A stretch of DNA of 64,000 nt from an uncultured Lacinutrix sp. Lineage in GTDB: Bacteria; Bacteroidota; Bacteroidia; Flavobacteriales; Flavobacteriaceae. Both the position numbers and the translations under genes were made by a program. Location of the stretch: assembly GCF_947500325.1 (NCBI RefSeq), contig NZ_CANMRQ010000009.1, forward strand, positions 62,001-126,000, written 5' to 3'. Position 1 is the first letter of the stretch; the number at the start of each line of letters is the position of its first letter. The notes under the pieces were generated by a model. It was not told where the DNA came from, made no database searches, and saw nothing but the letters and a program-made list of their open reading frames with translations. Positions 591-18,060 of this stretch are shown here, one piece after another.

Positions 591-2519
591 ATGAAACTTC
601 TTTATAAATTATTATTAATTATGCTATTACTTTTTTCTGGATGTAAAAAAGGCAAAAAAGCTGAAATAACTGTAATAGAAGAGGTTGATACATATGTTCA
701 GGACCATTATAATAAACAAGAGGTAAACATAGTTATGCGTGATGGCATAAAATTGCATACTACTATTTATTCTCCAAAAGATAAAAGCAAAGCATACCCA
801 ATTTTAATGATGAGAACACCATACAGTTGCAAGCCCTATGGTGATAATGAGTTTAAAGAAAAAATAGGGCCAAATAGTCATTTAATGAAAGAAGGGAATA
901 TAATAGTCTATCAAGATGTTCGCGGTCGTTGGATGAGCGAAGGTGTTTATGACAATATGAGAGCTTATATTCCTAATAAAAAAAATGAAAAAGATATTGA
1001 TGAATCTTCAGATACGTATGATACAATTGACTGGTTAGTTAATAATGTAGAAAATAATAATGGTCGTGTTGGCACTTGGGGAATTAGTTATCCAGGGTTT
1101 TACGCAACCTATTCAACAATAGATGCTCATCCAGCATTAAAAGCGGCTTCGCCTCAAGCATGTATTGGTGATTTCTTTTTTGATGATTTTCATCATAACG
1201 GCGCCTTTTTATTGAGCTATTTTAGAGCAGTTTCTCTATTTGGAACAGAAAAAAGTAAACCTACAGATTCGACTTGGTATAAATTGCCAGAATTAGGAAC
1301 AGAAGATCAATACCAATTCTTTTTAGATGCTGGACCATTAAGTAATTTGAATAGTTATTTTCAATATGAAAAACCGGATGATAACTCTGTTTCTAAATCA
1401 GATAAAATTGATGATGTATTTTGGAAAGAAATAATAGATCATCCCAATTACGATAGTGTATGGAAACCTAAAGGGTTGATTCAGAATTTAAAAACTATAA
1501 AGTCGTCTGTAGCAACAATGGTAGTCGGCGGTTTTTTTGATGCCGAAGATTTATATGGGCCTTTAGAAACATATAAAACAATTGAAAAATATAACCCTAA
1601 TAATTATAATACGATAGTGTTTGGACCATGGGATCATGGGCGATGGGCAAAATCTGAAGAAAAAAACTATGTAGGGAATTACTTTTTTGGAGACTCTATT
1701 TCTTTAAGATTTCAAAAAGATGTAGAAACTAAATTTTTTAATCACTTTTTAAAAGGCGAAGGTAATGGAAAATCTGGATTGCCAGAAGCTTATGTTTTTG
1801 ATTCGGGAAAGAAAACATGGAGTAGTTTTGATGCCTGGCCTCCAAAATCTATTGTAAAACAAAAAATGTTTTTGAATGAAAATCAGGAATTATCTGTGTC
1901 TAAAAGAGGAATAACTAAAGAAGTATTTATTAGTGATTTAAAAAGACCTGTACCATATTCTGAAGATATTAAAACGGTTTTTACACCAAGAAAATATATG
2001 ACAGACGATCAGCGGTTTACTGCAAGACGTCCAGATGTATTGGTATATGAAACAGATGCTTTAGAAGAAGATTTAACTTTAGCTGGAGATATTTTTGCGC
2101 ATTTAAAAGTAGCAACTACAGGAACAGATGCCGATTGGATAGTTAAAGTTATAGATGTACATCCATCAGATATTGAAGAGCAAGAAGAAGGTATGCAAGA
2201 CCATTTAAAATTAAGTAATTACCATATGATGGTTCGTAGCGAAGTTATGAGAGGTCGTTTTAGAAATAGTTTTGAGAATCCCGAACCATTTACTCCTAAC
2301 GAGAAAACCAATGTAACTATTAAATTACAAGATGTATTTCATACTATCAAAGCGGGGCATAAATTACAAATACAAGTACAAAGCACATGGTTTCCATTAA
2401 TAGATTTAAATCCGCAAACTTTTGTGCCCAATATTTATAAAGCAAAAGAAGCAGATTTTAAAAACCAAACGCATACTGTGTTTAGTGATTCTAGTATAGA
2501 ATTTTCAATATTAAAATAA
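591..2519 (+). CDS. CocE/NonD family alpha/beta hydrolase, lipoprotein
   Basis: Predicted serine hydrolase of the cocaine esterase / X-Pro dipeptidyl-peptidase (S15) class, which cleaves esters or amides such as acyl-peptide bonds. A type II signal peptide with lipobox LFSGC puts the lipidated Cys at 18. The alpha/beta-hydrolase domain carries the nucleophile motif G-I-S-Y-P-G with Ser166. Asp317 (GGFFDAED) and His349 (GPWDHGRW) complete the probable triad. The C-terminal third (about 430-640) is the jelly-roll domain typical of the family, with the pattern KAGHKLQIQVQSTWFP. At 642 aa it has the usual length. Natural substrate is unknown; bacterial homologues are often annotated as peptidases or glutaryl-7-ACA acylases. 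Confidence 0.9.
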   Translation: MKLLYKLLLIMLLLFSGCKKGKKAEITVIEEVDTYVQDHYNKQEVNIVMRDGIKLHTTIYSPKDKSKAYPILMMRTPYSCKPYGDNEFKEKIGPNSHLMKEGNIIVYQDVRGRWMSEGVYDNMRAYIPNKKNEKDIDESSDTYDTIDWLVNNVENNNGRVGTWGISYPGFYATYSTIDAHPALKAASPQACIGDFFFDDFHHNGAFLLSYFRAVSLFGTEKSKPTDSTWYKLPELGTEDQYQFFLDAGPLSNLNSYFQYEKPDDNSVSKSDKIDDVFWKEIIDHPNYDSVWKPKGLIQNLKTIKSSVATMVVGGFFDAEDLYGPLETYKTIEKYNPNNYNTIVFGPWDHGRWAKSEEKNYVGNYFFGDSISLRFQKDVETKFFNHFLKGEGNGKSGLPEAYVFDSGKKTWSSFDAWPPKSIVKQKMFLNENQELSVSKRGITKEVFISDLKRPVPYSEDIKTVFTPRKYMTDDQRFTARRPDVLVYETDALEEDLTLAGDIFAHLKVATTGTDADWIVKVIDVHPSDIEEQEEGMQDHLKLSNYHMMVRSEVMRGRFRNSFENPEPFTPNEKTNVTIKLQDVFHTIKAGHKLQIQVQSTWFPLIDLNPQTFVPNIYKAKEADFKNQTHTVFSDSSIEFSILK

Positions 2520-2897
2520 TTATTTAATACGCCATGGTGGATTTTTTCTATTCTCTCCAGCTTTAAATAATATAACGATATTACCATCAGGATCTTGAAC
2601 TTTAGCCTCGCGCCAAAGCCAAGATTCATCTTTGGGTAGTTGTATAAAAGTAATTCCTTTTAATTGTAATTCTTTAACCAAAATATCTAAATTATCATCT
2701 TCAAAATATAGTGTCGTATTGTTTTTTAGTAAAACATCATCTGTATAATGAATAGATAGAGTTGCCTCACCATCTGGACATTCTAGTCTAGCATAACGAG
2801 GCAAAGCATCTACAATTAACTTTAAACCTAGTTTTTTATAAAAAGACACTAATGGTCTTGTGTTTTCTGTGGTTATAGTGACTTGATTTAAATTCAT
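2520..2897 (-). CDS. VOC family (glyoxalase/bleomycin-resistance fold) protein
   Basis: A 125-aa protein of the vicinal oxygen chelate superfamily. It has the beta-alpha-beta-beta-beta pattern with VSFYKKLGLKL in the first half and the closing motif VQDPDGNIVILF. Such proteins are small dioxygenases, isomerases or antibiotic-binding proteins; which one cannot be told here. Its ATG follows the TAA of the upstream MFS gene with no gap (TAAATG), so the two are translationally coupled. It ends convergently against the CocE-like gene. Association with an exporter could suggest a resistance or detoxification role, but that is inference. Confidence 0.85.
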   Translation of the reverse strand: MNLNQVTITTENTRPLVSFYKKLGLKLIVDALPRYARLECPDGEATLSIHYTDDVLLKNNTTLYFEDDNLDILVKELQLKGITFIQLPKDESWLWREAKVQDPDGNIVILFKAGENRKNPPWRIK

Positions 2898-4103
2898 TTA
2901 TGCGGTTTTTTTCTTCATATATAATTTTAAAATAAATAATAATAACACACATAATATGGCTAAAACTGTCATAATATACCATGTGTTGTCAAAACCTAAT
3001 TTTTCAGCTAGTTGTAGACCAACATTATGACCAAAAATACTTCCAACAGAAAAGGCCATAGCGTACATAGCCATAAATTCTCCTTGATTTCCACGTTTTG
3101 CTCTATCTAAAGCAAATCCGTTTGCAAAAGGAAAGGCAATCATTTCTCCTATAGTCATTAGTAGCATCCCTATTATCAATATTCCAGACCATTCAGTAAT
3201 GTTTAGTACAATTAAACTTAAACCAGTTAGAAAAGCTCCAAATAAAATGAGTCCAACTTTTGTGTTTTTAGTTTTTTCTAACCATTTAATTAGTGGCATT
3301 TCAAATAGAAAAATAAATAAACCATTAGCTCCTAAAAGTAGACCAACTTGTAATTCACTTAACTCATGTGCTTCTCTATAGTAAATTGGCATGGCAGAAA
3401 AATATTGAAAAAATACAATTGCAAATAATACCATTGCTCCAAAAAATATTAGAAAAGGAATATCTCTATATGCAGATTTAGGGTTCTTTACAATTATATC
3501 GTCTTGAATTTTTGCAGTTTTAGGGTTTAGTACATTAAACAACACCAAAGTTGCTAAAATACAAGTAATACCATCAACCCAAAATAACCCACCGTAACTT
3601 AAATGAGTAATTATTAATCCTCCAACTGCAGGTCCAGCAGAGAAACCTAGATTAATGGCTAAACGAATTAGTGTAACACTACGTGTTTTGTTTTCAGGTT
3701 TACTATAAGCACTCATAGCAACAAAAGATGCAGGTCTAAACATGTCTGCAACACACATGGTAAAGAATATACCAATACAAAGTGATTTAAACGTAGTTAA
3801 ATACTGCAGGCCTATAAAAAGAAAGCCAGTAGCAAGAAGACTAAATACCATGATTTTATAGTACCCTATTATATCTGTAAGTTTACCTCCAAACCATGTT
3901 CCAACTAAAGAACCTAAACCAAAACATGTCATAATCCAACCTACATTAGATTTAGATATATCTAAATCCTCTGTTAAGTAAATTGATAAAAAAGGGATAA
4001 CCATAGTGCCAGCTCTATTAATTAATGTAATAAGAGCGAGCCACCATATTTCTTTTGATAATCCACTAAAAGAATCCATGTAATTTTTAAATAGCGTTTT
4101 CAT
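2898..4103 (-). CDS. MFS transporter
   Basis: Inner-membrane major facilitator superfamily permease of 401 aa with about 12 hydrophobic segments. The loop between helices 2 and 3 carries a motif-A-like sequence (GTWFGGKLTDIIGYYK), and a long hydrophilic loop sits in the middle (about 190-215), as in two-times-six-helix transporters. Drug or metabolite efflux is most likely, driven by proton exchange; the substrate is not visible. It is the first gene of a two-gene operon with the VOC protein. A terminator-like hairpin lies just upstream, at 4165-4200, and insulates it from what precedes it. Confidence 0.9.
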   Translation of the reverse strand: MKTLFKNYMDSFSGLSKEIWWLALITLINRAGTMVIPFLSIYLTEDLDISKSNVGWIMTCFGLGSLVGTWFGGKLTDIIGYYKIMVFSLLATGFLFIGLQYLTTFKSLCIGIFFTMCVADMFRPASFVAMSAYSKPENKTRSVTLIRLAINLGFSAGPAVGGLIITHLSYGGLFWVDGITCILATLVLFNVLNPKTAKIQDDIIVKNPKSAYRDIPFLIFFGAMVLFAIVFFQYFSAMPIYYREAHELSELQVGLLLGANGLFIFLFEMPLIKWLEKTKNTKVGLILFGAFLTGLSLIVLNITEWSGILIIGMLLMTIGEMIAFPFANGFALDRAKRGNQGEFMAMYAMAFSVGSIFGHNVGLQLAEKLGFDNTWYIMTVLAILCVLLLFILKLYMKKKTA

Positions 4104-4164
4104 TGGTTTGGTTGTTTTGGTTTATGTCATTTGCTAAAAGTTTAATTCGTTGATAGACCTAAAA

Positions 4165-4200
4165 TAAAAAAGTCCAACTACGAAGTTGGACTTTTAATAT
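4165..4200 (-). terminator. Rho-independent terminator hairpin
   Basis: The 9-bp perfect stem AAGTCCAAC / GTTGGACTT has a short loop. On the minus strand it is followed by a T-rich run (TTTTTTATTTTA). No annotated gene ends just before it on that strand, only a short open frame at 4224-4301, so it may close a small transcript. Confidence 0.7.
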
Positions 4201-4223
4201 TGTATTAATTGATATTTACATCA

Positions 4224-4301
4224 TCATAAAATATAAGAAGCCCAACCTGTATCTCTACAAGAGGTCCATTGTTGCTTATAATTTTTAATGACTAAATACA
4301 T
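4224..4301 (-). other. Possible small ORF or gene remnant (25 aa)
   Basis: An ATG at 4301 reads 25 residues ending WTSCRDTGWASYIL. The same frame stays open upstream (LNTFLFSFEPSKDKK) to about 4352, with a TTG at 4334. Rich in Trp, Cys and aromatic residues, it looks more like the C-terminal end of a protein than random AT-rich DNA. It is followed within 30 bp by a good terminator on the same strand. It could be a microprotein or the decayed tail of a lost gene. The rest of the 320-bp gap (4104-4423) holds a -7 box and a palindrome described separately. Confidence 0.3.
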
Positions 4302-4349
4302 TTTTTTATCTTTTGATGGTTCAAAGCTAAACAAAAAAGTATTAAGTTG

Positions 4350-4357
4350 TATTTTTG
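4350..4357 (+). promoter_or_regulatory. Candidate -7 promoter box for the P450 gene
   Basis: TATTTTTG matches the Bacteroidota -7 consensus TAnnTTTG exactly and lies 66 bp before the P450 start. No clear TTG is found 17-23 bp upstream, so the -33 element is weak or an activator is needed. Confidence 0.4.
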
Positions 4358-4393
4358 ATTAGTAAATATTTTTAAAACTAATTTAAAATATAA

Positions 4394-4407
4394 GCCTTTT
4401 AAAAGGC
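4394..4407 (+). promoter_or_regulatory. 14-bp perfect palindrome before the P450 gene
   Basis: GCCTTTTAAAAGGC is fully self-complementary and ends 16 bp before the P450 ATG, downstream of the candidate -7 box. It could be an operator or a leader hairpin overlapping the translation start region. Confidence 0.4.
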
Positions 4408-4423
4408 AATTATTATATAGTTT

Positions 4424-5839
4424 ATGCATGATGACAAGCTAATTACAATAAAAGATTTAAAATCTCCAAAAGGCACTTTTTTACTTGGCCATTTGCCACA
4501 ATTTAATACTTATAATAAACATCAAGTGCTTGAACGTTGGGTAGAAGAATCTGGTGATTTATTTAAAATACATTTTGTAGGAAAGGAATTTGTAGTATCT
4601 GCTAATCCAGATATTAATAATAAAATGCTAAGACAAAGACCAGAACAATTTAAACGCTTTTCTAAGATTGATGAAATTTTAAAAGAAATGGGTGTTGATG
4701 GTGTTTTTAATGCCGAAGGAGCGTCATGGAAACGACATAGAAAGCCAATAGCAGAAGCTTTAAATGTGAAAAATGTAAAAGCATATTACCCTATCATTTT
4801 AGACAAGACCAATGAAATTCTTAAAAAATTTAAAGCATATGCAACTAAAAAAAGCATTGTAGATGTTCAAAAAGAATTCATGGCTTTTACAATAGATATT
4901 ACGACAGAAATAGCTTTTGGTCACAAATTAGATACTATAAATAACAAGTCTGATGGCTTTCAAAAACATTTAGAAGTTATCTTTCCAATGATTAATTCTA
5001 GAATCACAGCGCCGATACCAATATGGCGATATTTTAAGAAGGAAAAAGGTAAAACACTAGATTATTCTTTAAAATCTATAGAGAAAATAATTTTTGAGTT
5101 TATTGAAGAAGCAAAAAGTAGAATAGTAGATAATCCTAAATTAAAAGCACAACCAACTAATTTTTTAGAAGCTTTATTAGTAGAAAGTGATGAAGAGAAA
5201 TTTAACGATAAAGAAATTTATGGAAACATTTTTACAATGCTATTGGCAGGAGAAGATACTACATCAAACTCATTGTCATGGGCTGTTTTTTATTTAGCAC
5301 AGCATCCAGAAATTGTAAATAAAGTTAGAGAAGAAGCTTTTACTGAATATAATAATCTAGACATACCAAGTAAATATGAGACCATTGAATCATTAAAATA
5401 TGCCAATGCAGTAGTTCAAGAAGCAATGCGTTTAAAGCCAACAACACCTCAATTGTATCTTGAGTCTAATGAAGATGTTATTATTAATAATGTGTCTTTT
5501 CCCAAAGGGACAAGTATTATTCTTCAGAATAAAGTGGCACAAAATCAAGACGAATACTTCTCTAATGCTAATGCTTTTGAGCCCCAAAGGTGGATTGTTA
5601 GTGAATGTCCAATGCATAAAAACCATTCGCCTAATATAATGAGGGCTTTTGGTGGCGGCGCTCGTTTTTGTCCAGGAATGTTTCTAGCAAAAAGTGAAAT
5701 GGTTGTTTTAGTTTCTGCACTGTGTAAACATTTTGATTTTAAATTAGAATCTAAATTGGAAGATATAAGAGAGCGATTTGAGTTTACAATGTATCCAGAA
5801 AACTTAAAAGTAACCCTTAAGCCAGCTAACAAGATTTAG
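4424..5839 (+). CDS. Cytochrome P450
   Basis: Heme-thiolate monooxygenase of 471 aa with no signal peptide or membrane anchor, hence a soluble class needing a separate reductase. Visible landmarks are the I-helix oxygen-activation motif A-G-E-D-T-T (275-280), the K-helix E-x-x-R (Glu333/Arg336), and the heme-ligand loop F-G-G-G-A-R-F-C-P-G with proximal Cys416. The sequence resembles bacterial P450s of the CYP102/CYP4-like clan acting on fatty acids or terpenoids, but no fused reductase is present and no ferredoxin gene is nearby. Substrate unknown. It stands alone, 29 bp before the DUF1684 lipoprotein gene, with which it may be cotranscribed. Confidence 0.93.
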   Translation: MHDDKLITIKDLKSPKGTFLLGHLPQFNTYNKHQVLERWVEESGDLFKIHFVGKEFVVSANPDINNKMLRQRPEQFKRFSKIDEILKEMGVDGVFNAEGASWKRHRKPIAEALNVKNVKAYYPIILDKTNEILKKFKAYATKKSIVDVQKEFMAFTIDITTEIAFGHKLDTINNKSDGFQKHLEVIFPMINSRITAPIPIWRYFKKEKGKTLDYSLKSIEKIIFEFIEEAKSRIVDNPKLKAQPTNFLEALLVESDEEKFNDKEIYGNIFTMLLAGEDTTSNSLSWAVFYLAQHPEIVNKVREEAFTEYNNLDIPSKYETIESLKYANAVVQEAMRLKPTTPQLYLESNEDVIINNVSFPKGTSIILQNKVAQNQDEYFSNANAFEPQRWIVSECPMHKNHSPNIMRAFGGGARFCPGMFLAKSEMVVLVSALCKHFDFKLESKLEDIRERFEFTMYPENLKVTLKPANKI

Positions 5840-5868
5840 TTGTATTTTTGAATTAAATAAAAAGTAAA

Positions 5869-6474
5869 ATGAAAAATATTTTCTGTCTATTATGTCTTAG
5901 TGTTTCGTTATTAAGTTGTGCGCAAGAGAAAAAGCCTTTATTAGGTGAAACTGACTTTCAAAAAGAATTAAATGCAGAGTATAAAGATGCTACCAAGTCA
6001 CCTTTATTAGCTAAAGATTTAAAAAATTTCAATGGGTTAGATTTTTTTAAATTTGATTCTACTTTTGTGGTTGTAGCTAAGCTTAAGAGAACACCAGATT
6101 CAGATTTTCATCCCATGGAGACAACTACAAATAGAGTTTCTATGGAGCGTATATATGGCGTCTTATCTTTCGAATTAGTAGGAGAAACTTTTAGCCTTAA
6201 CGTATATCAAGGGGAAGATTTAATGAAGACTGAAGGATATGAAGATTATTTGTTTTTACCTTTTTCTGATGCTACAAATGGTGAAGAAACATATGGAGGT
6301 GGAAGATATATGGATTTAAGAATACCTAATGTAGATACCATAGAATTAGATTTTAATAAAGCGTATAATCCATATTGCGCCTATAACCCAAAATATTCCT
6401 GTCCTATTGTTCCTTTAGAAAATTCATTAGATGTTAGAGTAGAAGCAGGTGTGAAAAAATACGACAAGCATTAA
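5869..6474 (+). CDS. DUF1684 family lipoprotein
   Basis: A 201-aa protein with lipobox LLSCAQ (Cys17), so anchored to the envelope. The C-terminal half carries the DUF1684 hallmark series: PFSDATNGEETYGGGRYMDL, then DFNKAYNPYCAY, then CPIVPLEN. The conserved Tyr/Asn/Cys residues suggest a binding or catalytic site, but the function of the family is unknown to me. It follows the P450 gene by 29 bp and converges on crcB with a single base between the stop codons. Confidence 0.88.
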   Translation: MKNIFCLLCLSVSLLSCAQEKKPLLGETDFQKELNAEYKDATKSPLLAKDLKNFNGLDFFKFDSTFVVVAKLKRTPDSDFHPMETTTNRVSMERIYGVLSFELVGETFSLNVYQGEDLMKTEGYEDYLFLPFSDATNGEETYGGGRYMDLRIPNVDTIELDFNKAYNPYCAYNPKYSCPIVPLENSLDVRVEAGVKKYDKH

Positions 6475-6475
6475 T

Positions 6476-6841
6476 TTATTTTACTAAATGCATGCCTGCA
6501 AAAACAGCTAAAAAACCTATAGCGAAACTAGCTATAGTATAGATAGCAAAGCTTGTAAAATCGCCAGTCTTTAGAAAAGCATGATTTTCATAAGCAAAAG
6601 TAGAAAAGGTTGTAAAACCTCCACAAAAACCTGTAGCTAAAAGTAGCGTATGGTTCTCTGTTAGCGTATTATTTTTTAAGGCTAACCCTAATATAATTCC
6701 TATTAGAAAACTGCCTAAAATATTAGCAGCGAAAGTGCCATATGGAATTCCAGTTTCAGTGCTATTTAAATATTTACCTATAAGATAACGTAATACACTA
6801 CCAAATCCACCGCCAACAAAAACAAGTAAAAGGTTTTTCAT
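6476..6841 (-). CDS. crcB: Fluoride channel CrcB/Fluc
   Basis: Small inner-membrane protein (121 aa, four hydrophobic segments) of the CrcB/Fluc family, whose members form dual-topology dimers exporting fluoride. Diagnostic parts are the N-terminal GGGFGSVLRYLIGKY and the central GFCGGFTTFSTFAYE. The latter contains the Phe residues and the helix break that line the fluoride path. A single crcB copy suggests a homodimer. I looked for a fluoride riboswitch upstream (6842-7061) and did not find its conserved core. Confidence 0.95.
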   Translation of the reverse strand: MKNLLLVFVGGGFGSVLRYLIGKYLNSTETGIPYGTFAANILGSFLIGIILGLALKNNTLTENHTLLLATGFCGGFTTFSTFAYENHAFLKTGDFTSFAIYTIASFAIGFLAVFAGMHLVK

Positions 6842-6965
6842 AGTTGTTTATACTGTTAAGTCTACAATATTATCTTTTTTTTTAGTCTTATTCTATTATT
6901 ACCTAAAATAAATCATTTTTAAAATTTTAACATTTAAGATGTTAATCTTTTTACAAATAGACTAT

Positions 6966-7025
6966 AAAGTGGTTGAGTGAATACTTGATTATTAGTCTCA
7001 CTTTGGCGAAAACCGAAAAGCCAAA
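6966..7025 (+). promoter_or_regulatory. Possible structured 5' leader of the 688-aa orphan gene
   Basis: Two inverted repeats overlap. AAAGTG (6966-6971) can pair with CACTTT (6999-7004), and TTTGGC (7002-7007) can pair with GCCAAA (7020-7025). The three bases TTT at 7002-7004 are shared, so the two stems cannot both form fully. They end 36 bp before the start codon. This may be a regulatory leader; no known riboswitch class was recognised. Confidence 0.3.
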
Positions 7026-7061
7026 ATAGAGTAGGTACGCTATTTAATTTCTATAATTATT

Positions 7062-9128
7062 ATGAAAAAATTAAACGAAAAGCAACTAATAGTTGCGAGA
7101 CAGGAGTATAAACCTTACTTGTCTTTAGGAGAAAAAAAGCTATCAAAGCTTAAGTTAAACACAGAAATGAACTTTTTTAGTCAAAAATTGAATACCACTT
7201 TCGAGTCTTTAGGTTGTGTGGGCTATAATTCGGCTAAACAACAACTAACTGCTACCATTAATATTAAACGTGAAACAGGCTATTTAGGTGGATTGTGTAC
7301 AAATGGATCTTACGAATATGTAAGGTTTTATATGGACTACCAAGATGGTAATGGTTGGGAAGATATGGGAGTAGTTGGTGTAAATGTACATGATATTCCT
7401 ACCGAGAAAGATTGTGTACAGAAAGATGAAAAACCTATTACTTATGTTGCTAGATTAGATATAAGTTCTAAAAGGAAATATTGCTCTGTTCCTAATTTAC
7501 CTATTGTAAGAGCTGTTTTATCATGGAATTCTATACCAGAACCTAATGATCCAGATTTAGCTTTAGGGACTTATGTATGGAGTGATACTAAAGATGCTCA
7601 AATTCAAATTGAGCCATACAAATTTTTTATCCCAGATTTTACAGTATTTGAAATAGACGACATACTAAATACAGCTATTTTAAATCCTAATTTGTCTTTA
7701 AACCAATTAACTTTAGGTCAACCTGAAAAAAAACTTGAACTTGATAAAGTAAAGACCACAATTACACCAAAAGCATTAAATTTTAATGAGCTATCATTAC
7801 TATATAATAATGAGAAAATTGAGCCACATCGTTTTGGGTATAAAGAATTACAAAAAGTAATAAATACACCATATTCATCAGATATTGCTAGCATTTCAAA
7901 TTTATTTGAACTTAACAATTGGAGTTTAGCAGAAAGTTTAGAACAATTGTATAATATAGAATGTAATAATGAATATGAAGAATTGGTTTGCGTTGGAGCA
8001 GATTATAATCGTGAAGCTTTAGTAGGGACATTTAAAGTTAAAAAAAGCTCAGGATACAGTGGTGATTTATGTAGTGACGGAAGTAAAGAGTACGTATCTT
8101 TCTGGGTGCAAACCGAAGAAAATTGCGAATGGGTACATGCAGGAACGACCTCTGTAAATGTTTACGATATTCCAGATGTGCCAGATGATGGACTGTTTTA
8201 TTCAGCTGTATTACCTTATAAATTTAACGGTCTTAAAAAAGACTGTCAACAACCTCAGGTGCTTAAGGTAAAAGCAGTTTTATCATGGAACGTTGCCCCA
8301 GAAGATATGGGATGCCCAAGATGGGGAGATATTTTAGAGTCTTATGTGCAATTACAACCAGAAGAAGTTTCGATTGGCGTAGGTCCAGAAATGAAAGCGA
8401 TAGGTGGTATTCATGTAGATTATATTAATAACATGGGATTCTCTATGTTAAATGCTCACTTTAGATATTCAGGATTACCAGTTACTCTAGATAGCGCTTT
8501 TGCTGGAGTTGTAGTAGTAGAAGCTGAGACTAACAAATTTGATGGACAATCTTATAAAATAAGAGTAGATAATTTAGATACTGGAGAAAGTTATTATGAA
8601 GATACTGCATTTAGAAAAGATGATATTTTTGATTGGTCTTATGCAGATCCAGTTACTAAAGAATATACTTATTATGGAGACGCTACAAATAATTCACTCA
8701 ATATTGTAGCAAGATTTAGACCAAGATATGCAAACAATAGAATTAGAGTTACTATTGAACATTCAGACTTAACATCTTATAGTAAGGTTATTCAAATGGA
8801 TAATATCTCTCCAAAATTAACACTTAATATAGATAATTATGGAGACTGCTCGCATTTTGTAAAAGGAAGTATTATTACTGGAAATTATGAAGTTGAAGAA
8901 ACATACTTAGATGCTTTTACATTAAGTACAACAGTAGCAGATCCTGCAAATTTAATTGTTGCTAGTGGTGTAGCTTCAAATGCTGGAAACTTCTCAATTG
9001 TTACATCGTCTTCTAAAAATTGCGGTGATATTGTATTGTCTGCTAGACCTAGAACAGTTGTTAATAGTGTTAGCATGCACTCTTCAGTACCAAAAAGAAG
9101 GATTATATGTTTAAAAGATCCTAGTTAA
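7062..9128 (+). CDS. Orphan protein with internal duplication, unknown function
   Basis: A 688-aa protein without a signal peptide or membrane segment, beginning MKKLNEKQLIVARQEYKPYL. It contains two copies of a ~125-residue beta-rich module, at about 55-185 and 305-430. Both share the order CVG, then (T)GY.G.LC..GS.EYV.F, then V.V.DIP, then a Cys-containing strand, then VRAVLSWN or VKAVLSWN. Each copy has conserved Cys residues. The C-terminal ~250 residues form a different beta-rich, Ig-like region with IGGIHVDYINNMGF and Lys/Arg-rich ends. I do not recognise the family. It is a monocistronic gene with a strong terminator. Cysteine-rich modules in a protein without an export signal are unusual; leaderless secretion or a phage-tail-like or toxin-delivery role would be guesses. 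Confidence 0.85.
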   Translation: MKKLNEKQLIVARQEYKPYLSLGEKKLSKLKLNTEMNFFSQKLNTTFESLGCVGYNSAKQQLTATINIKRETGYLGGLCTNGSYEYVRFYMDYQDGNGWEDMGVVGVNVHDIPTEKDCVQKDEKPITYVARLDISSKRKYCSVPNLPIVRAVLSWNSIPEPNDPDLALGTYVWSDTKDAQIQIEPYKFFIPDFTVFEIDDILNTAILNPNLSLNQLTLGQPEKKLELDKVKTTITPKALNFNELSLLYNNEKIEPHRFGYKELQKVINTPYSSDIASISNLFELNNWSLAESLEQLYNIECNNEYEELVCVGADYNREALVGTFKVKKSSGYSGDLCSDGSKEYVSFWVQTEENCEWVHAGTTSVNVYDIPDVPDDGLFYSAVLPYKFNGLKKDCQQPQVLKVKAVLSWNVAPEDMGCPRWGDILESYVQLQPEEVSIGVGPEMKAIGGIHVDYINNMGFSMLNAHFRYSGLPVTLDSAFAGVVVVEAETNKFDGQSYKIRVDNLDTGESYYEDTAFRKDDIFDWSYADPVTKEYTYYGDATNNSLNIVARFRPRYANNRIRVTIEHSDLTSYSKVIQMDNISPKLTLNIDNYGDCSHFVKGSIITGNYEVEETYLDAFTLSTTVADPANLIVASGVASNAGNFSIVTSSSKNCGDIVLSARPRTVVNSVSMHSSVPKRRIICLKDPS

Positions 9129-9150
9129 TATCTCTTTCTAGAGGAAACAA

Positions 9151-9183
9151 AAAGCAGTTCTAAATTTAGAACTGCTTTTTTTA
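9151..9183 (+). terminator. Bidirectional Rho-independent terminator
   Basis: The stem AAAGCAGTTC / GAACTGCTTT is followed by T runs in both directions. It serves the 688-aa orphan on the plus strand and the SRPBCC gene on the minus strand. Confidence 0.9.
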
Positions 9184-9202
9184 TTAAGTAACTGTATATA
9201 AC

Positions 9203-10225
9203 TTATTTTACAGCTATATAAATTTCAGTTTTTAAATCTGCAGGATTAGGAGTATTCATTGGAGAATTAAGATAAGATTCCAAATTTGGACCAGTTTCAA
9301 TTTGTTCTAGTCCACTATCCTTTATTTTTTTAGTAGCAGTTTCCCATGCTTCTTTTAGATTATCATAACTTCCATTTAGAGTTGTTTTAACTGCTTTAAA
9401 CGGTTCAAGTTGACCAGTAAGTATATTACTGTCTGTAGTTATAACTTTTGCAGTCGTAGGAACACAACAAGAAAACATAACTGAGTTATTTGTTTCATCC
9501 CATTTATGATATAAAACATAAGGAGCTCCAGCTTTAGTAATGTTGTTTTTTTGAGCATAACCAATTACTTCTTGATACATTTGCCCCATTTTATTTTGAA
9601 AATCTTGAAAGTTTGTTGCTGTAGTATTGTAAATATAAAAACCTCCACTATGTTGTGTTGTTTCTTTATCTACTACAATACTATATTTTTTCATATTAAC
9701 TTGTACTATGCTATCTAGTTTTTCAAGACTGCGTTCATATTCTGGTCCAATTTGTTTTTCCATGCCACCCATTAAAGCCGAAAAAGCTTTAAAAGCAAAT
9801 GGTAAATCTTTACCTGCTATATCCCAAGTGACTTCTGTAGAACCATCAGTATTAGGTTTAAAGGTCCATGATACATCAGACTTTGGGAATTCAGCAAATT
9901 GCATTTCTTGAGTTATAGACTTATTAGGAGTAGTTTTTATAGTTTTCATAGTACCAATGCCATCTTTGTCTTCCCAAGAATAAGAGCCACCAATACCTTC
10001 AGTTTTTTCAGGAAGAGTTATGGTCATATTCGGATCTTTTTCAACCCAAGAAGACCAAGTAGACCAGTTTTTAAAATCTACAACATTATTGTATACTACG
10101 GCTGCGGGTGCTTGTATTGTTTTGGTTCTTGTAACTTTAAACTCATTAGGTTGCACTGCTATATATATAGCTAACGCTATAATAGCAATAAGTAACAAGA
10201 AGAAAATATATTTTAATGCTTTCAT
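9203..10225 (-). CDS. Membrane-anchored SRPBCC protein with GyrI-like domain
   Basis: A 340-aa two-domain protein. One N-terminal hydrophobic helix (about 5-25) anchors it. It is followed by an SRPBCC (polyketide cyclase/START-like) ligand-binding domain (about 30-175) with the typical opening VTRTKTIQAPAAVVYNNVVDFKNWSTW cut by short loops. The C-terminal half (about 180-340) resembles the GyrI-like/AraC effector-binding domain, with GFYIYNTTATNFQDFQNKM and YVLYHKWDE. Both folds bind hydrophobic small molecules, so a sensing or sequestering role is likely, but no enzymatic residues are evident. It is divergent from the M49 peptidase gene. Confidence 0.85.
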   Translation of the reverse strand: MKALKYIFFLLLIAIIALAIYIAVQPNEFKVTRTKTIQAPAAVVYNNVVDFKNWSTWSSWVEKDPNMTITLPEKTEGIGGSYSWEDKDGIGTMKTIKTTPNKSITQEMQFAEFPKSDVSWTFKPNTDGSTEVTWDIAGKDLPFAFKAFSALMGGMEKQIGPEYERSLEKLDSIVQVNMKKYSIVVDKETTQHSGGFYIYNTTATNFQDFQNKMGQMYQEVIGYAQKNNITKAGAPYVLYHKWDETNNSVMFSCCVPTTAKVITTDSNILTGQLEPFKAVKTTLNGSYDNLKEAWETATKKIKDSGLEQIETGPNLESYLNSPMNTPNPADLKTEIYIAVK

Positions 10226-12457: not shown

Positions 12458-13177
12458 TTAGTTTTTTAATTCTGTCCCTTTGCTTTCTGAAATAGAAAAT
12501 CCAATATTAATGCCTATACCTAACCACGGTTTTTTATTATATTTCCAATTGGTTTCTTTATCATTGTTTCCTAATAAATCTAAACCATAAAAAAGTCCAA
12601 GATTTATGTTTTTGTCAAAATGCAGTATTACACCACTTGATATAGAAAAGGCACTAGCGGTTCTATCTTTTTCAACATCACTATTTTTATTGTTTAAATT
12701 AATGGTTGAGAGCCCTATTCCAATTGCTGGTTCATATAGCCATTTTTCTTTGATTTCTCTATTGAATCTAAATTGAAAACCAATGTTCATCCCAAAATTT
12801 ATGTTTTGTTCAAAATCAAAATCATCAATTCTAATTTTGAATGGGATAGTATAAAATCCAGCTCTTACTCCTTTAAAATTAGAATAAACTTGAGTTGTAT
12901 ATTTATTAAATTTTGATTTTTCAATTGAATGGGTTAGTAAAGTACTGTCTTTTTCTACAAATTTTTTATTTAAATCGTTGTTTCCAAATGGGTATACTCT
13001 AAAAATAACCTTTCCAGTATTTGTTGTATCAATTACTCTTATAGCGTATCCTTCTTTAAATTGGAGATTACTTTCATCTTCGTAAAGAGTATTAAATCTG
13101 TAGCTTCCTTTTAATTCTTGAGCAAAAAAAGTTGTATGAACAGTAAATAATACTAAAAATAAATAATATTTTTTCAT
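12458..13177 (-). CDS. Outer-membrane beta-barrel-like protein, probable target of the neighbouring two-component system
   Basis: A 239-aa protein with a signal peptide (about 1-19, ending TTFFAQ). It then shows alternating polar/hydrophobic strands and a Gly-rich C-terminus (KPWLGIGINIGFSI), as in small Bacteroidota outer-membrane barrels. I recognise no named family. It lies immediately downstream of the LuxR-type regulator gene but has its own promoter region: the -7 box TATGTTTG at 13205-13212 and, at 13235-13252, a palindrome nearly identical to the one before the whole regulator operon. It is therefore the best visible candidate for a regulated target. Confidence 0.75.
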   Translation of the reverse strand: MKKYYLFLVLFTVHTTFFAQELKGSYRFNTLYEDESNLQFKEGYAIRVIDTTNTGKVIFRVYPFGNNDLNKKFVEKDSTLLTHSIEKSKFNKYTTQVYSNFKGVRAGFYTIPFKIRIDDFDFEQNINFGMNIGFQFRFNREIKEKWLYEPAIGIGLSTINLNNKNSDVEKDRTASAFSISSGVILHFDKNINLGLFYGLDLLGNNDKETNWKYNKKPWLGIGINIGFSISESKGTELKN

Positions 13178-13234: not shown

Positions 13235-13252
13235 ATACCCAATAAAAGGTAT
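13235..13252 (-). promoter_or_regulatory. 18-bp palindromic operator, copy 1
   Basis: ATACCCAATAAAAGGTAT on the plus strand has half-sites ATACC and GGTAT separated by 8 bp. It differs by one base from the copy at 17733-17750. It ends 57 bp upstream of the 12458-13177 gene. Probable binding site of the adjacent LuxR-type response regulator (inference). Confidence 0.65.
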
Positions 13253-13254
13253 AT

Positions 13255-13878
13255 CTAAAACTTATATTTTTTTTCTAAAGCATAACGCATTAATTCACCT
13301 TTGCCTTTAAGACCAAGTATACGAACCATGTTTTTTCTATGCGTATCCACGGTATGTATTCCTATAAAAAGTAACTCACCAATTTCACGAGAAGTTTTAC
13401 CTTGGGCAATCAATTCTAGAATTTGGATTTGGCGTTTCGTTAAGACTCCTTTTTTAGAAGATTTAGCATTAGACTGTAATGAATTTGTATCAATATTAGC
13501 GTCGTAATAGGTTTCTCCTCTTTTTATGGCTTCAATGGCATCTTTAACTTCATTTAGAGATGAGTTTTTTAATAAATACCCAGAAGCACCTGCGGCAACC
13601 ATTTGTTCAATAGCATCTAACTGGTCAAACATAGTAAACGCTAATACTTTTATTTCAGGGAATTCTTTTTTTATCTGTTTTGTAGCTGTAATACCATCCA
13701 TTTTTGGCATTCTAATATCAGTAATTACAATATTTGGACGTTTAAGTCTAACAATATCTAATAACTCTTCGCCATTATTTGCAGTACCAACTATAGATAA
13801 ATTATCTTCATATTCAAGAAGGAGTTTAATACCGTCAATTAACGATTGATGATCTTCTGCAATAGCTAATCGTATCAT
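13255..13878 (-). CDS. LuxR/NarL-type response regulator
   Basis: A 207-aa transcription factor. The receiver domain (1-120) has acidic residues at 8-9, the phospho-acceptor Asp54 in IVITDIRMPK, and the conserved Lys near 105 (YLLKNSS). The C-terminal LuxR helix-turn-helix (about 145-205) contains VLTKRQIQILELIAQG and the recognition segment SREIGELLFIGIHTVDTHRKNM. Its start overlaps the sensor kinase stop by 4 bp (ATGA), so it is the output partner of that kinase. The shared palindrome before its own operon and before the neighbouring gene suggests autoregulation. Confidence 0.95.
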   Translation of the reverse strand: MIRLAIAEDHQSLIDGIKLLLEYEDNLSIVGTANNGEELLDIVRLKRPNIVITDIRMPKMDGITATKQIKKEFPEIKVLAFTMFDQLDAIEQMVAAGASGYLLKNSSLNEVKDAIEAIKRGETYYDANIDTNSLQSNAKSSKKGVLTKRQIQILELIAQGKTSREIGELLFIGIHTVDTHRKNMVRILGLKGKGELMRYALEKKYKF

Positions 13879-15662
13879 AATGGGATATCTATTATTATGG
13901 TAGTACCTTGGTTAATTTGAGATTCTATTTTAATGTCGCCTTCTAAATGCTCTATTCTTTTCTCTATACTATGCAATCCCATGCCGTTATTTTTTAGAAT
14001 CTTACTAGTATCAAAACCTTTACCATTATCTTCTATCATAATATTTAAACTGTCTTCATGATTGGTTATATTAATAGTAGCTTCAGAAGCTTTAGCATGT
14101 TTAACAATATTCGCAATGAGTTCTTGTATAATTCTAAAAATAGTAAGCTCTAGGCTGTTTTCTAATCGCTTTTCTAAACCATGATCTATAACATCAATGG
14201 TGATTTTATTTGCTATTGAAATTTTATTAGCCATTTCGTTTATAGCTTTTAAAAGGCCTTGTTTGGCTATTACACCAGAGTTTTTTGCATGGGCAACAGT
14301 TCTTATTTTATTATAAGCTTCGTCTATTAATTGGTTGGTTTTTGCATATAGTTCAGGTGTTTGTTTTTCTTTTAGCGTATTAAAATGGAGTTTAACAGTA
14401 GCCATAAGCCCGCCTAAATCATCATGTAAGTCATTAGCAATACGTTGTCGTTCTTTTTCTTGACCTTCAATCATGGCATCAATGGCACTTAGTTCCTGTT
14501 CCTTAAGAATAGTTGCTAACTTTTGAGTTTCTAATTCTTTTTCTTGCTCAGCTAGTTTTTGTTTTCGTTTAGTGTTTTTTTGAAGTAGAAAAAATAGTAT
14601 GGTCCCAAAAAGTAATAAAGTACCTAATAATAAAGCTACATTTTTATTCTTTTCTTTTTTTCTTTGTTCAATTAAAATTTGTTTTTCATCTTCTGCTTTT
14701 TCAGCACGTAATGTTGCATTATCATATTGTTCTTTTATTTCTGAAATAGCTATATTTTGATTGATATCATTAATACTGTCTTTAAGTTGAATATAGCGTT
14801 CTAAATATTTGCTAAAGTTTCTATAATCTTTTTTTCCTTTGTATGCTTCATATAAGTTTTTAGAAAAAACTAATTCAGATTTAGGAATGTTTTTTTTTAT
14901 TTGAATAGAATCTGCTTTTAGATAATACTTCAAGGCATTATTATAATCTTTTAAATTATAATGAGCTTTACCTTGATTATTATAGTTATATGCAATGGTT
15001 TGCGTGTCATTATATTTAAAAAAGACAGGTAAAGATTTTTTAAAATAATAAAGCGCAGAATCAGGGTTTTTTATATAATCATTAAATACACTTCCTTTAT
15101 TCATAAGTCCATAAGCGATGTACAAAGTGTCTTTGTTCTTTTGAGAAAGTTTAATGTACCTGTCAAAATACTCATTCGCTAAGTTGCCTTTTTCTTCATC
15201 CATATAATTAGATGCAATTCTATAATAAATTGATCTTAAAGCTTTATAATCATTTTTTAAAGAAGCATATTGTTTTAACTCATCTAAAATGGACTCAGTT
15301 TCAATTTTAATATCATTTTGATGACTTAAGATCTTTAGAATATTAATATTACAATTGGCTACATTTTTAATACTATCTGTTTTAATAAAAAGTACTTTTG
15401 CTTTGAGCGTTTGTTTGTAGGCAATTCCATGATTATCATTCATCAAATGTGCTTCTCCTAAAAAATAATAGACTAAAGCTTTATCATAAGTTGTAGCTTT
15501 AAGTGTGTCTATTTTTTCTAAAAGGCTTATGGCTTTATTAGCTTTGTAATTATTTAATTCACTATAAACTTTATCTAAATTTATGTTTTGAGAAAAACAG
15601 GAACAAGTAAGCATAAATATGCTTACTTGTATTAATAAATTATATTGCTTGAGTTTATTCAC
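13875..15662 (-). CDS. TPR-containing sensor histidine kinase (HisKA_3 type)
   Basis: A 595-aa kinase with an N-terminal signal segment (about 1-24). TPR-like helical repeats (about 30-300) form a probably periplasmic sensor. A coiled coil (about 310-340) and one membrane helix (341-360) follow, then a cytoplasmic coiled coil. The dimerisation/phospho-acceptor motif ERQRIANDLHDDLGG places the phosphorylated His at 413. A HATPase domain follows, with ELIANIVKHAKAS and the G-boxes DNGKGFD and NGMGLHSIEKR. The layout is the typical Bacteroidota NarX-like sensor. It is the fourth gene of a five-gene operon, 10 bp after the 146-aa protein. A protein or peptide signal is likely given the TPR sensor. 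Confidence 0.93.
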   Translation of the reverse strand: MNKLKQYNLLIQVSIFMLTCSCFSQNINLDKVYSELNNYKANKAISLLEKIDTLKATTYDKALVYYFLGEAHLMNDNHGIAYKQTLKAKVLFIKTDSIKNVANCNINILKILSHQNDIKIETESILDELKQYASLKNDYKALRSIYYRIASNYMDEEKGNLANEYFDRYIKLSQKNKDTLYIAYGLMNKGSVFNDYIKNPDSALYYFKKSLPVFFKYNDTQTIAYNYNNQGKAHYNLKDYNNALKYYLKADSIQIKKNIPKSELVFSKNLYEAYKGKKDYRNFSKYLERYIQLKDSINDINQNIAISEIKEQYDNATLRAEKAEDEKQILIEQRKKEKNKNVALLLGTLLLFGTILFFLLQKNTKRKQKLAEQEKELETQKLATILKEQELSAIDAMIEGQEKERQRIANDLHDDLGGLMATVKLHFNTLKEKQTPELYAKTNQLIDEAYNKIRTVAHAKNSGVIAKQGLLKAINEMANKISIANKITIDVIDHGLEKRLENSLELTIFRIIQELIANIVKHAKASEATINITNHEDSLNIMIEDNGKGFDTSKILKNNGMGLHSIEKRIEHLEGDIKIESQINQGTTIIIDIPL

Positions 15663-15672
15663 TAAATTTATA

Positions 15673-16113
15673 TTAACCTCCTACTAAAATGTTTCCTTTT
15701 TTTACGTCTGGAATTGTTGCGGTGTCATAACAATCAGAGCATACTTCCTTAAGATGTTCTCCTTTAAAAAGTTCGTCAGGGAAAAAAATAATTCTAGAAA
15801 CTTGAACTTTTTTAAAATCACAACCATTTTTTATTGGAAAGGGAATATTTGTTGTTGTAGAGTTGTCAAATCCTTTAATTTGTAGTTCGTGACAATTATT
15901 TGAATCGTCACAGTTTTTTCCAGTTATGGCTTCAATGCTACCTATTTGATAGCCATTTATATTATTATTAGTTATAGTTAATTCTGTCGCTATTCTTCCT
16001 TGCCATTTAGTGAATTTTCCTTTAATGTAGGTGTTATTAGCTTTGTTATGGAATAAAAAATATTCCTTTTTTGGATTACCTATTTCTACAGGTTCTTCGC
16101 TAGATGTTTTCAT
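15673..16113 (-). CDS. Unknown 146-aa protein in protease/two-component operon
   Basis: Soluble protein without a signal peptide, beginning MKTSSEEPVEIGNPKKEYFL. It has strand-rich segments, two close Cys pairs (CDDSNNC and CSDC) and a Gly-rich end (KKGNILVGG). The CSDC pair could bind metal or form a disulfide. It starts 2 bp after the protease stop codon and ends 10 bp before the kinase, so it is made together with both. It might be a protease substrate or partner; its glycine-rich C-terminus and cytoplasmic location fit but do not prove this. No family recognised. Confidence 0.75.
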   Translation of the reverse strand: MKTSSEEPVEIGNPKKEYFLFHNKANNTYIKGKFTKWQGRIATELTITNNNINGYQIGSIEAITGKNCDDSNNCHELQIKGFDNSTTTNIPFPIKNGCDFKKVQVSRIIFFPDELFKGEHLKEVCSDCYDTATIPDVKKGNILVGG

Positions 16114-16115
16114 AA

Positions 16116-17291
16116 TTAGATGTTTTTAAAAGTGATAAATTCTTTAAAAGTGATTTTAGGTAAACATTCAGTTTCGTCTACCTTTTGATTGAATATTTTT
16201 TGAAAATGATTGGAGAAGGTAGCAGTATTGTTATCATTTTTTGCAAAAATTAAACCTAAAGCGTGATTAGATTTACTAACTAATAGAGAGCCAGAGTCTC
16301 CTGGACTAGCCATACAAGAAGTTAGTATTTGGTTTTTGAAATATTTGTCTTCTTCATGGATATATAAAGTTGAATTAATAGATCTAACTATTCCTTCTGT
16401 ATATCCTGTACTCTTTCCACATTTTTTTACAAACATCCCAATTGCAGCAGGAATAGGAAGTTGAAAAGAAATATTATTACACCTTGTATGATTTCCTATT
16501 TCTTGTTTTTCATATAGCTTGACAATAGCTGCGTCTACTTCTTCATTTTCCAGTTCCCAATGTATTGTTCCTATATCTCTAATTATAGAATTGTCTTCTC
16601 TAGAGGGATGTGTTACTATATTTTTTTTATTATTTTTACATATACCTCCTCTGAGAACATGTTTATTTGTAATAATATATTTGTTTTTATCATTACGCAT
16701 TTTAAAAACAGCTCCTAAAGTTCCAGATAATCCTGAAAGTTTTTTGCTAGAAATACTGATTCCTCCTTCTAAGAATTTTTGACTACTATATGAAGCATTA
16801 TTAGTATTTCCACAGCATAGTAGTTTTATTTCCCCAGATATTTTAAGATTCAACTCTTTTTCTTTTATTATTTTTGAATCTTCTAGCGAATAACCTAAAT
16901 TTAATAATGTATCTTTTTTAAACTCATTTATAGAATAATTATTAAGCTTCAATTCTTCTAATTCCGAATTTGATAAACCAAAATTATTTTGTTTCTTACT
17001 ATATAAACTACTATTTTCAATAGCATTGATATCTATGTTTTTTAGCTTTTCAATTAATAAATTGTTTTTTAGAATTTTTTTTAAGTATTTAATTTTTCTA
17101 GATTTTAAAAAGCCTTCAATTAATCTGGTGTGGTCTGTTTTTCTTAAAAGGCCTACTTCAATAGCATATTTAAATGGATTATTGGGATGAAGTATAACAG
17201 CAGCATAAACTGCTTTCCCGTGAATTTGCTCTATAAAAATTTCATCATGATGGGTTTTTAAATATTCATTAGCTTCTTGCTCTGTCATCAC
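16116..17291 (-). CDS. Trypsin-fold serine protease (NAL1-like), cytoplasmic
   Basis: A 391-aa protein with no signal peptide. Residues about 1-165 form a helical, lysine-rich N-terminal region without a recognised domain. Residues about 175-375 have the chymotrypsin fold, with His211 in IITNKHVL, Asp253 in EEVDAAIVKL and Ser333 in ASPGDSGSLLV. Other marks are CGKSTGYTEGIV and ALGLIFAKNDNNTATFSN. This order and the 'HVL ... GKSTG ... GDSGS ... GL.FA' spacing resemble NAL1-like and other cytoplasmic trypsin-like proteases rather than secreted trypsin or HtrA (no PDZ domain). It overlaps the upstream membrane-protein gene by 4 bp (ATGA). A protease encoded in one operon with a sensor kinase suggests a proteolysis-linked signalling or protection system (inference). 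Confidence 0.85.
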   Translation of the reverse strand: MMTEQEANEYLKTHHDEIFIEQIHGKAVYAAVILHPNNPFKYAIEVGLLRKTDHTRLIEGFLKSRKIKYLKKILKNNLLIEKLKNIDINAIENSSLYSKKQNNFGLSNSELEELKLNNYSINEFKKDTLLNLGYSLEDSKIIKEKELNLKISGEIKLLCCGNTNNASYSSQKFLEGGISISSKKLSGLSGTLGAVFKMRNDKNKYIITNKHVLRGGICKNNKKNIVTHPSREDNSIIRDIGTIHWELENEEVDAAIVKLYEKQEIGNHTRCNNISFQLPIPAAIGMFVKKCGKSTGYTEGIVRSINSTLYIHEEDKYFKNQILTSCMASPGDSGSLLVSKSNHALGLIFAKNDNNTATFSNHFQKIFNQKVDETECLPKITFKEFITFKNI

Positions 17292-17674
17292 AATCCATTT
17301 ATAGGGTTAAATAAATACACTAAAACAAAAACAGCTAAAGCACCACCAGCAGTAATAGTAGATTCTTTTTCTGCTAAAGACATTGGCGCACTTACAGGTT
17401 TGTCTATAGGTTTACCATCAGCATTAAAAGTTTTGATAGAATTTTCTAGAGGTTGACCTTCTTTATTGTATTCAATTTTTAGCATACCCGGTATAGATAT
17501 ACTAACAGCACTAGCAGCTAACGCGGTTATAACTCTAAAAAACCAAAGAATAAATTTTTGATTGTCAGGATCGAATGTTTCATTAGTTGTTAATGAGTTT
17601 AAGTAAATTGCAGATATTCCAAAAGCAACTACAGCTACAATAAACATAGCCAAAGGAGGTACTGTTTTTCTCAT
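17288..17674 (-). CDS. Three-helix membrane protein, first gene of the protease/two-component operon
   Basis: A 128-aa protein with hydrophobic segments at about 7-27, 43-66 and 106-123. The second and third are linked by a polar loop containing SISIPGMLKIEY and AGGALAVFVLVYLFNP. From memory, the combination of a helix ending in IPG, a short beta segment, and then 'GALAVFVxVYxxNP' recurs in small membrane proteins or membrane tails of bacterial signalling and conflict proteins, but I cannot name a characterised member. It overlaps the protease gene by 4 bp and is a plausible membrane anchor or sensor for it. Confidence 0.8.
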   Translation of the reverse strand: MRKTVPPLAMFIVAVVAFGISAIYLNSLTTNETFDPDNQKFILWFFRVITALAASAVSISIPGMLKIEYNKEGQPLENSIKTFNADGKPIDKPVSAPMSLAEKESTITAGGALAVFVLVYLFNPINGL

Positions 17675-17732: not shown

Positions 17733-17750
17733 ATACCCAATACAAGGTAT
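17733..17750 (-). promoter_or_regulatory. 18-bp palindromic operator, copy 2
   Basis: ATACCCAATACAAGGTAT matches copy 1 at 17 of 18 positions. It ends 58 bp upstream of the first gene of the five-gene operon, essentially the same distance as copy 1 from its gene (57 bp). Downstream sequence has only imperfect -7 boxes (TACTTTGC, TATTTTG). Confidence 0.65.
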
Positions 17751-17814: not shown

Positions 17815-18000
17815 TTACTTAAAAATAAACTTTATGGCAGCAATTAATCCTATAAAGCCTATAAAGGCTAATAATACCCATAGCGTACCTCTGTAATGTT
17901 GTTTGTGAATATTAATATCTTTTCTATAAGTATAGATTAATGATGAGATAAACACCATAGCAAAACAAATAGCAAAAATTAATTGTCCTGTACTAAACAT
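17815..18000 (-). CDS. Small conserved two-helix membrane protein
   Basis: I place the start at the ATG at 18000 (MFSTGQLIFAICF), giving 61 aa. An in-frame ATG at 18042 would add 14 residues not expected from similar flavobacterial proteins. Two membrane helices (about 5-22 and 40-58) flank a short basic loop with YRKDINIHKQHYRG. Proteins of this form are widespread in Flavobacteriaceae without known function. It is divergent from the SDR gene, with 60 bp between them. Confidence 0.7.
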   Translation of the reverse strand: MFSTGQLIFAICFAMVFISSLIYTYRKDINIHKQHYRGTLWVLLAFIGFIGLIAAIKFIFK

Positions 18001-18060
18001 ATACTTATTTTTAAATTTTAAAAACTGTTGAAGAATTAACATTTCAAAAATACGACTAAT

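Follow-up and report, generated by a model that had tools for sequence, protein, structure and literature searches.

The 64,000-nucleotide stretch analysed here (the window; positions 62,001 to 126,000 of contig NZ_CANMRQ010000009.1, RefSeq assembly GCF_947500325.1, from an uncultured Lacinutrix sp. of the Flavobacteriaceae) carries a five-gene operon in which a trypsin-fold protease and a small membrane protein are joined to a two-component system. Between the protease and the sensor kinase lies a protein of 146 amino acids (aa), which we call X. Five open reading frames (ORFs) were verified on the minus strand, in the positions and order given by an earlier note that had been made from the sequence alone. 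The junctions are likewise as that note described them, with overlaps of 4 base pairs (bp) at the first and last and gaps of 2 and 10 bp between, and the five genes are likely to form one transcript. The operon and its flanks comprise the following features:

17733-17750, no strand: palindrome ATACCCAATACAAGGTAT, located some 60 bp upstream of the operon, a candidate regulator box
17674-17288, minus strand: small membrane protein, 128 aa, the first gene behind the upstream box
17291-16116, minus strand: trypsin-fold serine protease, 391 aa, GTG start, in an optional payload slot
16113-15673, minus strand: X, the 146-aa protein, with the C-terminal tail KGNILVGG
15662-13875, minus strand: TPR sensor histidine kinase, 595 aa, GTG start
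13878-13255, minus strand: NarL/LuxR-type response regulator, 207 aa (Response_reg 93.6 bits, GerE 53.1 bits)
13235-13252, no strand: palindrome ATACCCAATAAAAGGTAT, between the regulator stop and the outer-membrane gene, a candidate regulator box
12458-13177, minus strand: outer-membrane beta-barrel-like protein with a signal-like start (OMP_b-brl 24.8 bits, below the cut-off of 28.7)

Above their Pfam cut-offs, the kinase matched HATPase_c and HisKA_3 and the adjoining regulator matched Response_reg and GerE, which makes the pair a two-component system. The kinase begins with a signal-like segment, followed by a sensor half, whose TPR matches in Pfam are weak, a transmembrane segment near residue 340 and the HisKA_3/HATPase core. 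X had no Pfam match, and the membrane protein, which carries three segments that stand out in a hydrophobicity analysis, had none above cut-off. No N-terminal hydrophobic segment was seen in the window protease, in agreement with the claim that it lacks a signal peptide. Both the protease and X look cytoplasmic, and the TPR sensor is predicted to lie outside, as in the proposed arrangement of a protease working inside and a kinase sensing outside.

To place the operon among its relatives, loci were collected by kinase similarity. The kinase search of the family found 32 of 199 genomes at E ≤ 1e-90, and further loci came from a scan of genome contigs (the best 80 of 460 relatives). Kinases sharing identical last 250 residues were counted once, and loci in which the kinase scored below 180 bits, or in which no ORF was called for it (L025, L048-L050, L057), were excluded at an early stage. 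This left 105 distinct loci, from which 33 were removed (below 255 bits or with a kinase ORF below 500 aa; among them L078, which belongs to the clade but is truncated) and 72 were retained, with L020 kept by choice. X was located by script in 69 of the 72 and by hand in L063; L088 is cut by a contig end, and L068 is the sole assessable locus without X. In 70 of the 71 assessable loci, X lies immediately upstream of the kinase on the same strand. X, the TPR kinase and the LuxR regulator are thus the constant core of these loci.

X itself is far from constant. It ranges from 126 to 263 aa (69 loci) and is barely alignable across types. The name ‘Cys-pair protein’ used in the earlier note is not supported, as no cysteine is invariant in its alignments; the common element is the C-terminal tail. 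One of two C-terminal motifs was present in 42 of 69 X proteins and neither in the other 27. Motif 1 occurred in 25/69 X proteins vs. 11/796 other ORFs, and motif 2, which contains a cysteine, in 21/69 vs. 16/796; because the motifs were written after the tails had been seen and the loci are related, p-values for these counts are not chance probabilities. Several loci depart from the simple arrangement. In L072, two X-like genes whose tails are alike (SCTIPP) stand in tandem (4969-6105), and L029 has a tandem pair of such kinases ahead of a single regulator (2621-6402). ORFs of about 126-131 aa lie near the operon in L016 (4696-5076), L017 (2793-3179), L028 (3705-4085) and L032 (12602-12997). 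In L016 and L017 these ORFs show weak similarity to the regulator (54.7 and 55.5 bits, respectively) and resemble stand-alone LuxR-type DNA-binding proteins; those of L028 and L032 were judged by eye.

The protease is much rarer than the core. A protein search found it in 8 of the 199 family genomes, including the window genome, and in 1 of the 13 genomes of the genus. In all seven other genomes, X, the kinase and the regulator adjoin it (in L012 a longer protein replaces X), and in four of the seven the membrane protein is also present. The gene order of the window is retained in L013, L014, L016 (where the membrane protein was masked in the gene picker) and L017. The membrane protein was not recognised in L012 or L015, and in L018 the regulator is placed in front. 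A MazG-like gene, labelled by eye, adjoins the operon in six of the seven, which places these six at one shared chromosomal site, the exception (L012) lying near a contig end. With a protease profile, 31 of 199 genomes matched at E ≤ 1e-4 and just 9 at E ≤ 1e-22; the ninth strong genome, G102 (L026), likewise has X, kinase and regulator, and no such kinase was found near the weak matches in G082, G131 and G086. The membrane protein gave 9 strong matches in the 199 genomes, of which 5 stand beside a protease. It also occurs without one, next to X and the kinase, in L022-L024, and with neither X nor kinase in L025; it is separable from the rest of the operon.

These counts bear on the most economical alternative, that unrelated genes have come to lie together by accident. 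The scarcity of the protease and the separability of the membrane protein would suit it, but it is contradicted by the shared X-kinase-regulator neighbours in 7/7 other protease genomes and by the position of X beside the kinase in 70/71 loci, and we rejected it as scarcely credible. The co-occurrence test set out in the earlier note, under which rare co-occurrence of the homologues would mean accidental linkage, thus comes out in favour of real linkage. The idea of a five-gene system survives in part: the linkage is conserved, but the set is not fixed, since the slot before X is optional and the membrane protein can be present where the protease is missing. Within the genus, a cassette of this kind occupies the site only in the window genome and in G205, which has X, kinase and regulator without the protease; the site in the other 11 genomes has no such cassette. 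A conserved small two-helix gene (MFSTGQ..., window 17815-18042) flanks the operon in many loci and persists at sites without the cassette.

We next consider what fills the slot. The window protease belongs to the trypsin family (Trypsin PF00089, 26.7 bits vs. a cut-off of 20.6), whereas its scores for Trypsin_2 (26.5 bits) and Nal1_C PF25819 (22.5 bits) fall below the cut-offs of 27.6 and 26.1, respectively. Among solved chains, streptogrisin B was nearest (1.6e-4), compared with 0.013 for NAL1. The designation ‘NAL1-like’ is therefore weak, while the catalytic residues named with it, His211, Asp253 and Ser333, are the correct letters. In an alignment of 14 slot trypsins, His and Ser were present in 14/14 and Asp in 12/14, with Glu in the other two; the called ORF starts of the L013 and L053 proteases are too early. 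These 14 loci are the window, L012-L018, L026, L051-L054 and L059. A papain-like protease takes the slot in four loci, with matches above the Pfam cut-off in L043 and L073, below it in L039 and by motif only in L063. In L047 the slot holds a caspase-like protease (PADLOC 5.7e-10; no Pfam match). The slot before X is thus optional and filled by three protease folds. Besides its trypsin, L018 carries a caspase recognised by Pfam; this gene follows the kinase and has a box 54 bp upstream. The protease class is also paired with the type of X: the trypsins partner a tail-1 X in 12/14 loci and the papain-like proteases a MAHENLKF-type X subtype in 4/4. The papain-like locus L043 (G026:C1, 6622-11606) has subtilase-like and LmuA-like MBL genes as its neighbours on the opposite strand.

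In a Mantel test on 63 loci, X similarity followed the sensor half of the kinase (partial rank r = 0.32, p = 0.001, the lowest value that 999 permutations permit) and not the kinase core (partial rank r = 0.04, p = 0.115); 6 of the 69 X loci, in which the search expression found no H-box, were left out. The best X partner was within the top 3 sensor partners in 45/51 cases and within the top 3 core partners in 13/51. The regulator, used as a contrast, followed the core (0.69; 61 loci). Of 41 pairs of loci with a core score above 0.86, 38 had a sensor score below 0.30, and in these 38 the fitted split between dissimilar and similar parts fell between -27 and +20 residues from the transmembrane start. 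Identity in the 16 pairs printed was 0.21-0.35 before the split and 0.83-0.95 after it. The class of protease changed 7 times on the sensor tree (shuffled mean 15.8; 0/300 shuffles as low) and 14 times on the core tree (28/300 shuffles as low); both are quick trees of 62 loci, without L020. Finally, five Aquimarina-type loci were compared whose cassettes differ: the sequence surrounding the box is conserved in part among them, and their similarity drops near the first start codon. Together with the break at the transmembrane segment, this suggests that the exchanged block runs approximately from the promoter to the kinase transmembrane segment. The payload (often a protease), X and the sensor appear to move between species as a block, while the kinase core and the regulator stay with the host.

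The two 18-base palindromes in the window were spotted by eye and are the sole matches within 3 mismatches in its 64 kb; 3 of 100 shuffles gave an equal number. The downstream copy lies 58 bp upstream of the outer-membrane gene. NarL-family proteins bind inverted heptamers of a similar general look. The pattern TACC-N8-GGTA, derived from the two window sites, was found 114 times in the 72 loci, compared with 7.6 sites expected from first-order Markov shuffles, and 56/72 loci contained at least one. A box was present in the 3 kb preceding the kinase in 49/72 loci, shortly behind the kinase in 37 and in either place in 52. The cassette-side box was present in 11/14 trypsin loci and also in L063 and L073. 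Among 70 sites located 45-75 bp before a start, the flanking base that follows the pattern was T in a fraction of 0.99. Of the 33 genes that follow the regulator-side box, 24 have products that a crude rule would class as secreted. We infer that the palindromes are candidate boxes bound by the regulator, in which case the operon is probably self-regulated and the outer-membrane gene 12458-13177 is a probable second target. Similar sites also turned up elsewhere. In L149/L147 (G000:C20), a box at 1435 stands 53 bp before a 234-aa lipoprotein-like gene (677-1381), far from the operon. In L148 of the window genome (G000:C4:334000-344000, 776-4588), genes for a caspase, a 486-aa protein and an LmuA-like MBL protein stand in a row. 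The box-like palindrome ahead of the caspase lies 118 bp away, beyond the usual spacing, and was not used as evidence.

A periplasmic TPR sensor, and a regulator box followed by genes for outer-membrane or secreted proteins, would also fit an envelope-stress or surface-sensing two-component system that carries a quality-control protease, its diversity reflecting different envelopes. We regard this explanation as rather improbable. The module is found in only 2 of 13 genus genomes, three protease folds swap in one slot, X and the sensor are exchanged as a block, and some copies are linked to the CBASS (cyclic oligonucleotide-based antiphage signalling system) genes described below.

The window genome contains a divergent second copy of the module, L020 (G000:C2:36000-52000, 820-9087), beside genes that look recombinase-like by eye. 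Its order is X, kinase, regulator, trypsin and membrane protein, followed by CD-NTase, E1-E2 and JAB genes, which match a type II CBASS set in PADLOC (5.2e-87, 2.7e-223 and 1e-50, respectively). Boxes lie ahead of three of its genes, those for X, the trypsin and the CD-NTase. A search of 397 genomes with the L020 kinase returned four matches, itself counted. One of them, L156 (G179:C8:166000-183000, 748-10140), from another genus, is laid out like L020 but pairs a CD-NTase (5.3e-138) with a HORMA protein (1.4e-72), as in type III CBASS; boxes lie 51 and 53 bp before its trypsin and CD-NTase, and two lie before X. G360 has X, kinase and regulator together with a box and a trypsin, and no cyclase was found among the genes scanned. 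In G143 (L037), neither trypsin nor cyclase was seen by eye. Thus, two of the four L020-type copies are linked to CBASS and three of the four to a trypsin. These CBASS-linked copies and their candidate boxes lend support to the earlier suggestion of a defence-type protease with regulated expression. Neither Pfam nor PADLOC detected a CD-NTase in the window operon.

Comparison with known systems was made in the open-access literature, with most subscription papers outside its scope; there we found no description of a system with this gene set, in line with the earlier note, and the X-kinase-regulator module appears to be undescribed in the work compared. ComQXPA, the quorum-sensing system of Bacillus, is closest in logic. 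As outlined in PMC4008528, it shares a variable ligand (here the putative ligand X), a variable kinase N-terminus on a conserved HisKA_3/HATPase core, a NarL/LuxR-type regulator and adjacent genes on the same strand. It differs in that the six window proteins scanned gave no Pfam match to the ComQ isoprenyl transferase, that the TPR sensor here is flanked by a signal-like segment and a single transmembrane segment, and that a protease or CBASS is attached in some loci. X, at 126-263 aa with a conserved tail, is also unlike the short ComX precursor, which the same source gives as 52-73 aa with its C-terminus the most variable part.

This likeness raises the possibility of a pheromone or kin-recognition locus in the manner of ComX/ComP: the protease would mature X, X or a fragment of it would be exported and read by the TPR sensor of the same allele, and the payload and surface proteins would serve social or competitive traits. 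Ligand-sensor polymorphism over a conserved kinase core is the pattern that PMC4008528 describes for ComQXPA; the operon is probably autoregulated, and most genes behind the regulator-side box have apparently secreted products. Moreover, all 18 protease-linked X proteins counted lack a signal segment, compared with 34 of the 51 others (p = 0.003, or 0.03 if L026 is taken as signalled), which hints at a cytoplasmic encounter between the protease and X. However, X far exceeds ComX in length, its tail is the common rather than the variable part, no conserved exporter or maturase adjoins it, many loci have no recognised protease, and CBASS-linked copies fit poorly. We therefore think a pheromone locus unlikely, if less so than an envelope-stress system.

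The other comparisons share single features with the operon. In RRNPP receptors such as NprR/NprX, TPR is the sensing part, and NprX matures to SKPDIVG, which bears a loose resemblance to the X tail and nothing more (PMC5641580). Here, however, TPR belongs to a membrane histidine kinase and is predicted to lie outside the cytoplasm, which sets it apart from a cytoplasmic receptor, and X is a whole protein, with any short-peptide ligand only putative. The conflict systems of Kaur et al. 2020/2021 (PMC7159879, PMC8195603) have interchangeable trypsin- and caspase-type effectors and diversifying operons like those seen here. They centre on MoxR-vWA, STAND or GTPase cores, for which the five operon proteins gave no Pfam match, and the part of Kaur et al. 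2020 (PMC7159879) on vWA-associated effectors finds no histidine kinase domains among them. Nuclease-protease pairs, including caspase-nuclease pairs, place a trypsin- or caspase-like protease in a defence pathway (PMC12799240); the window operon, by contrast, has no nuclease, and its protease goes together with X and a two-component system. Plant NAL1 (NARROW LEAF 1) has a trypsin-type fold with His/Asp/Ser and a weak sequence match, but the window protein is below the Nal1_C cut-off, bacterial and in an operon with X. CBASS of types II and III are joined to L020 (CD-NTase, E1-E2, JAB) and L156 (CD-NTase, HORMA), whereas the window operon has no cyclase. No paper on two-component control of CBASS was found in the literature searched.

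On balance we favour, with moderate confidence, a polymorphic and probably self-amplifying two-component module of the partner-receptor type that drives conflict-type payloads. In such a module, the TPR half of the kinase would have X as its dedicated partner, either a ligand or a co-sensor. Once the state of X changed, perhaps upon an outside or infection-related cue, the kinase would turn on and phosphorylate the regulator. The regulator would then bind the ATACC..GGTAT box about 60 bp before the operon, creating positive feedback, and the box before the outer-membrane gene behind it. In the window, the induced payload would be the cytoplasmic trypsin-fold protease and the small membrane protein; in sister loci it would be a papain-like or caspase-like protease, and in the divergent copies a trypsin with a CBASS cluster. 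This variety of payloads makes a conflict or defence role the likeliest. The linkage, the X-sensor coupling, the similarity break, the palindromes with their spacing and the CBASS-linked copies can be read from the sequences, whereas contact between X and the sensor, the cue, the protease substrate and the defence role are our interpretation.

Several observations weigh against this favoured module. An N-terminal hydrophobic segment is missing from 51/69 X proteins, yet present in 65/69 kinases, so X may fail to come into contact with a sensor in the periplasm. The regulator is also weakly tied to the sensor (partial 0.14, p = 0.019; 61 loci). In most of the 72 loci no protease was recognised in the slot before X, 20 loci have no box at the cassette or behind the regulator, and L039, L043 and L047 lack the cassette-side box. 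The genome-wide excess of boxes is modest (86 sites vs. 56 for a reversed-pattern control in the 32 kinase-bearing genomes; 6 vs. 1 in the window genome), and for this reason we dropped the idea of a wide regulon. The module is missing from 11/13 genus genomes. Finally, no convincing defence match came from PADLOC for the proteins of the window, so that a defence role for the window operon rests on its relatives.

A more specific version of the favoured module, which we put forward tentatively and hold to be less probable than the module itself, is an immunity switch, with X and the TPR sensor as an exchanged allelic pair whose own regulator box would serve to activate proteases and CBASS. If this is true, lineages would differ in what triggers their defences. 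More generally, the module would join partner-receptor polymorphism of the ComX/ComP type with regulated conflict proteases and CBASS, which are usually found apart. It would also offer a testable transcriptional route for triggering CBASS, together with its likely DNA site, and the swapped sensors would be a natural set for mapping the part of X that is read by the receptor.

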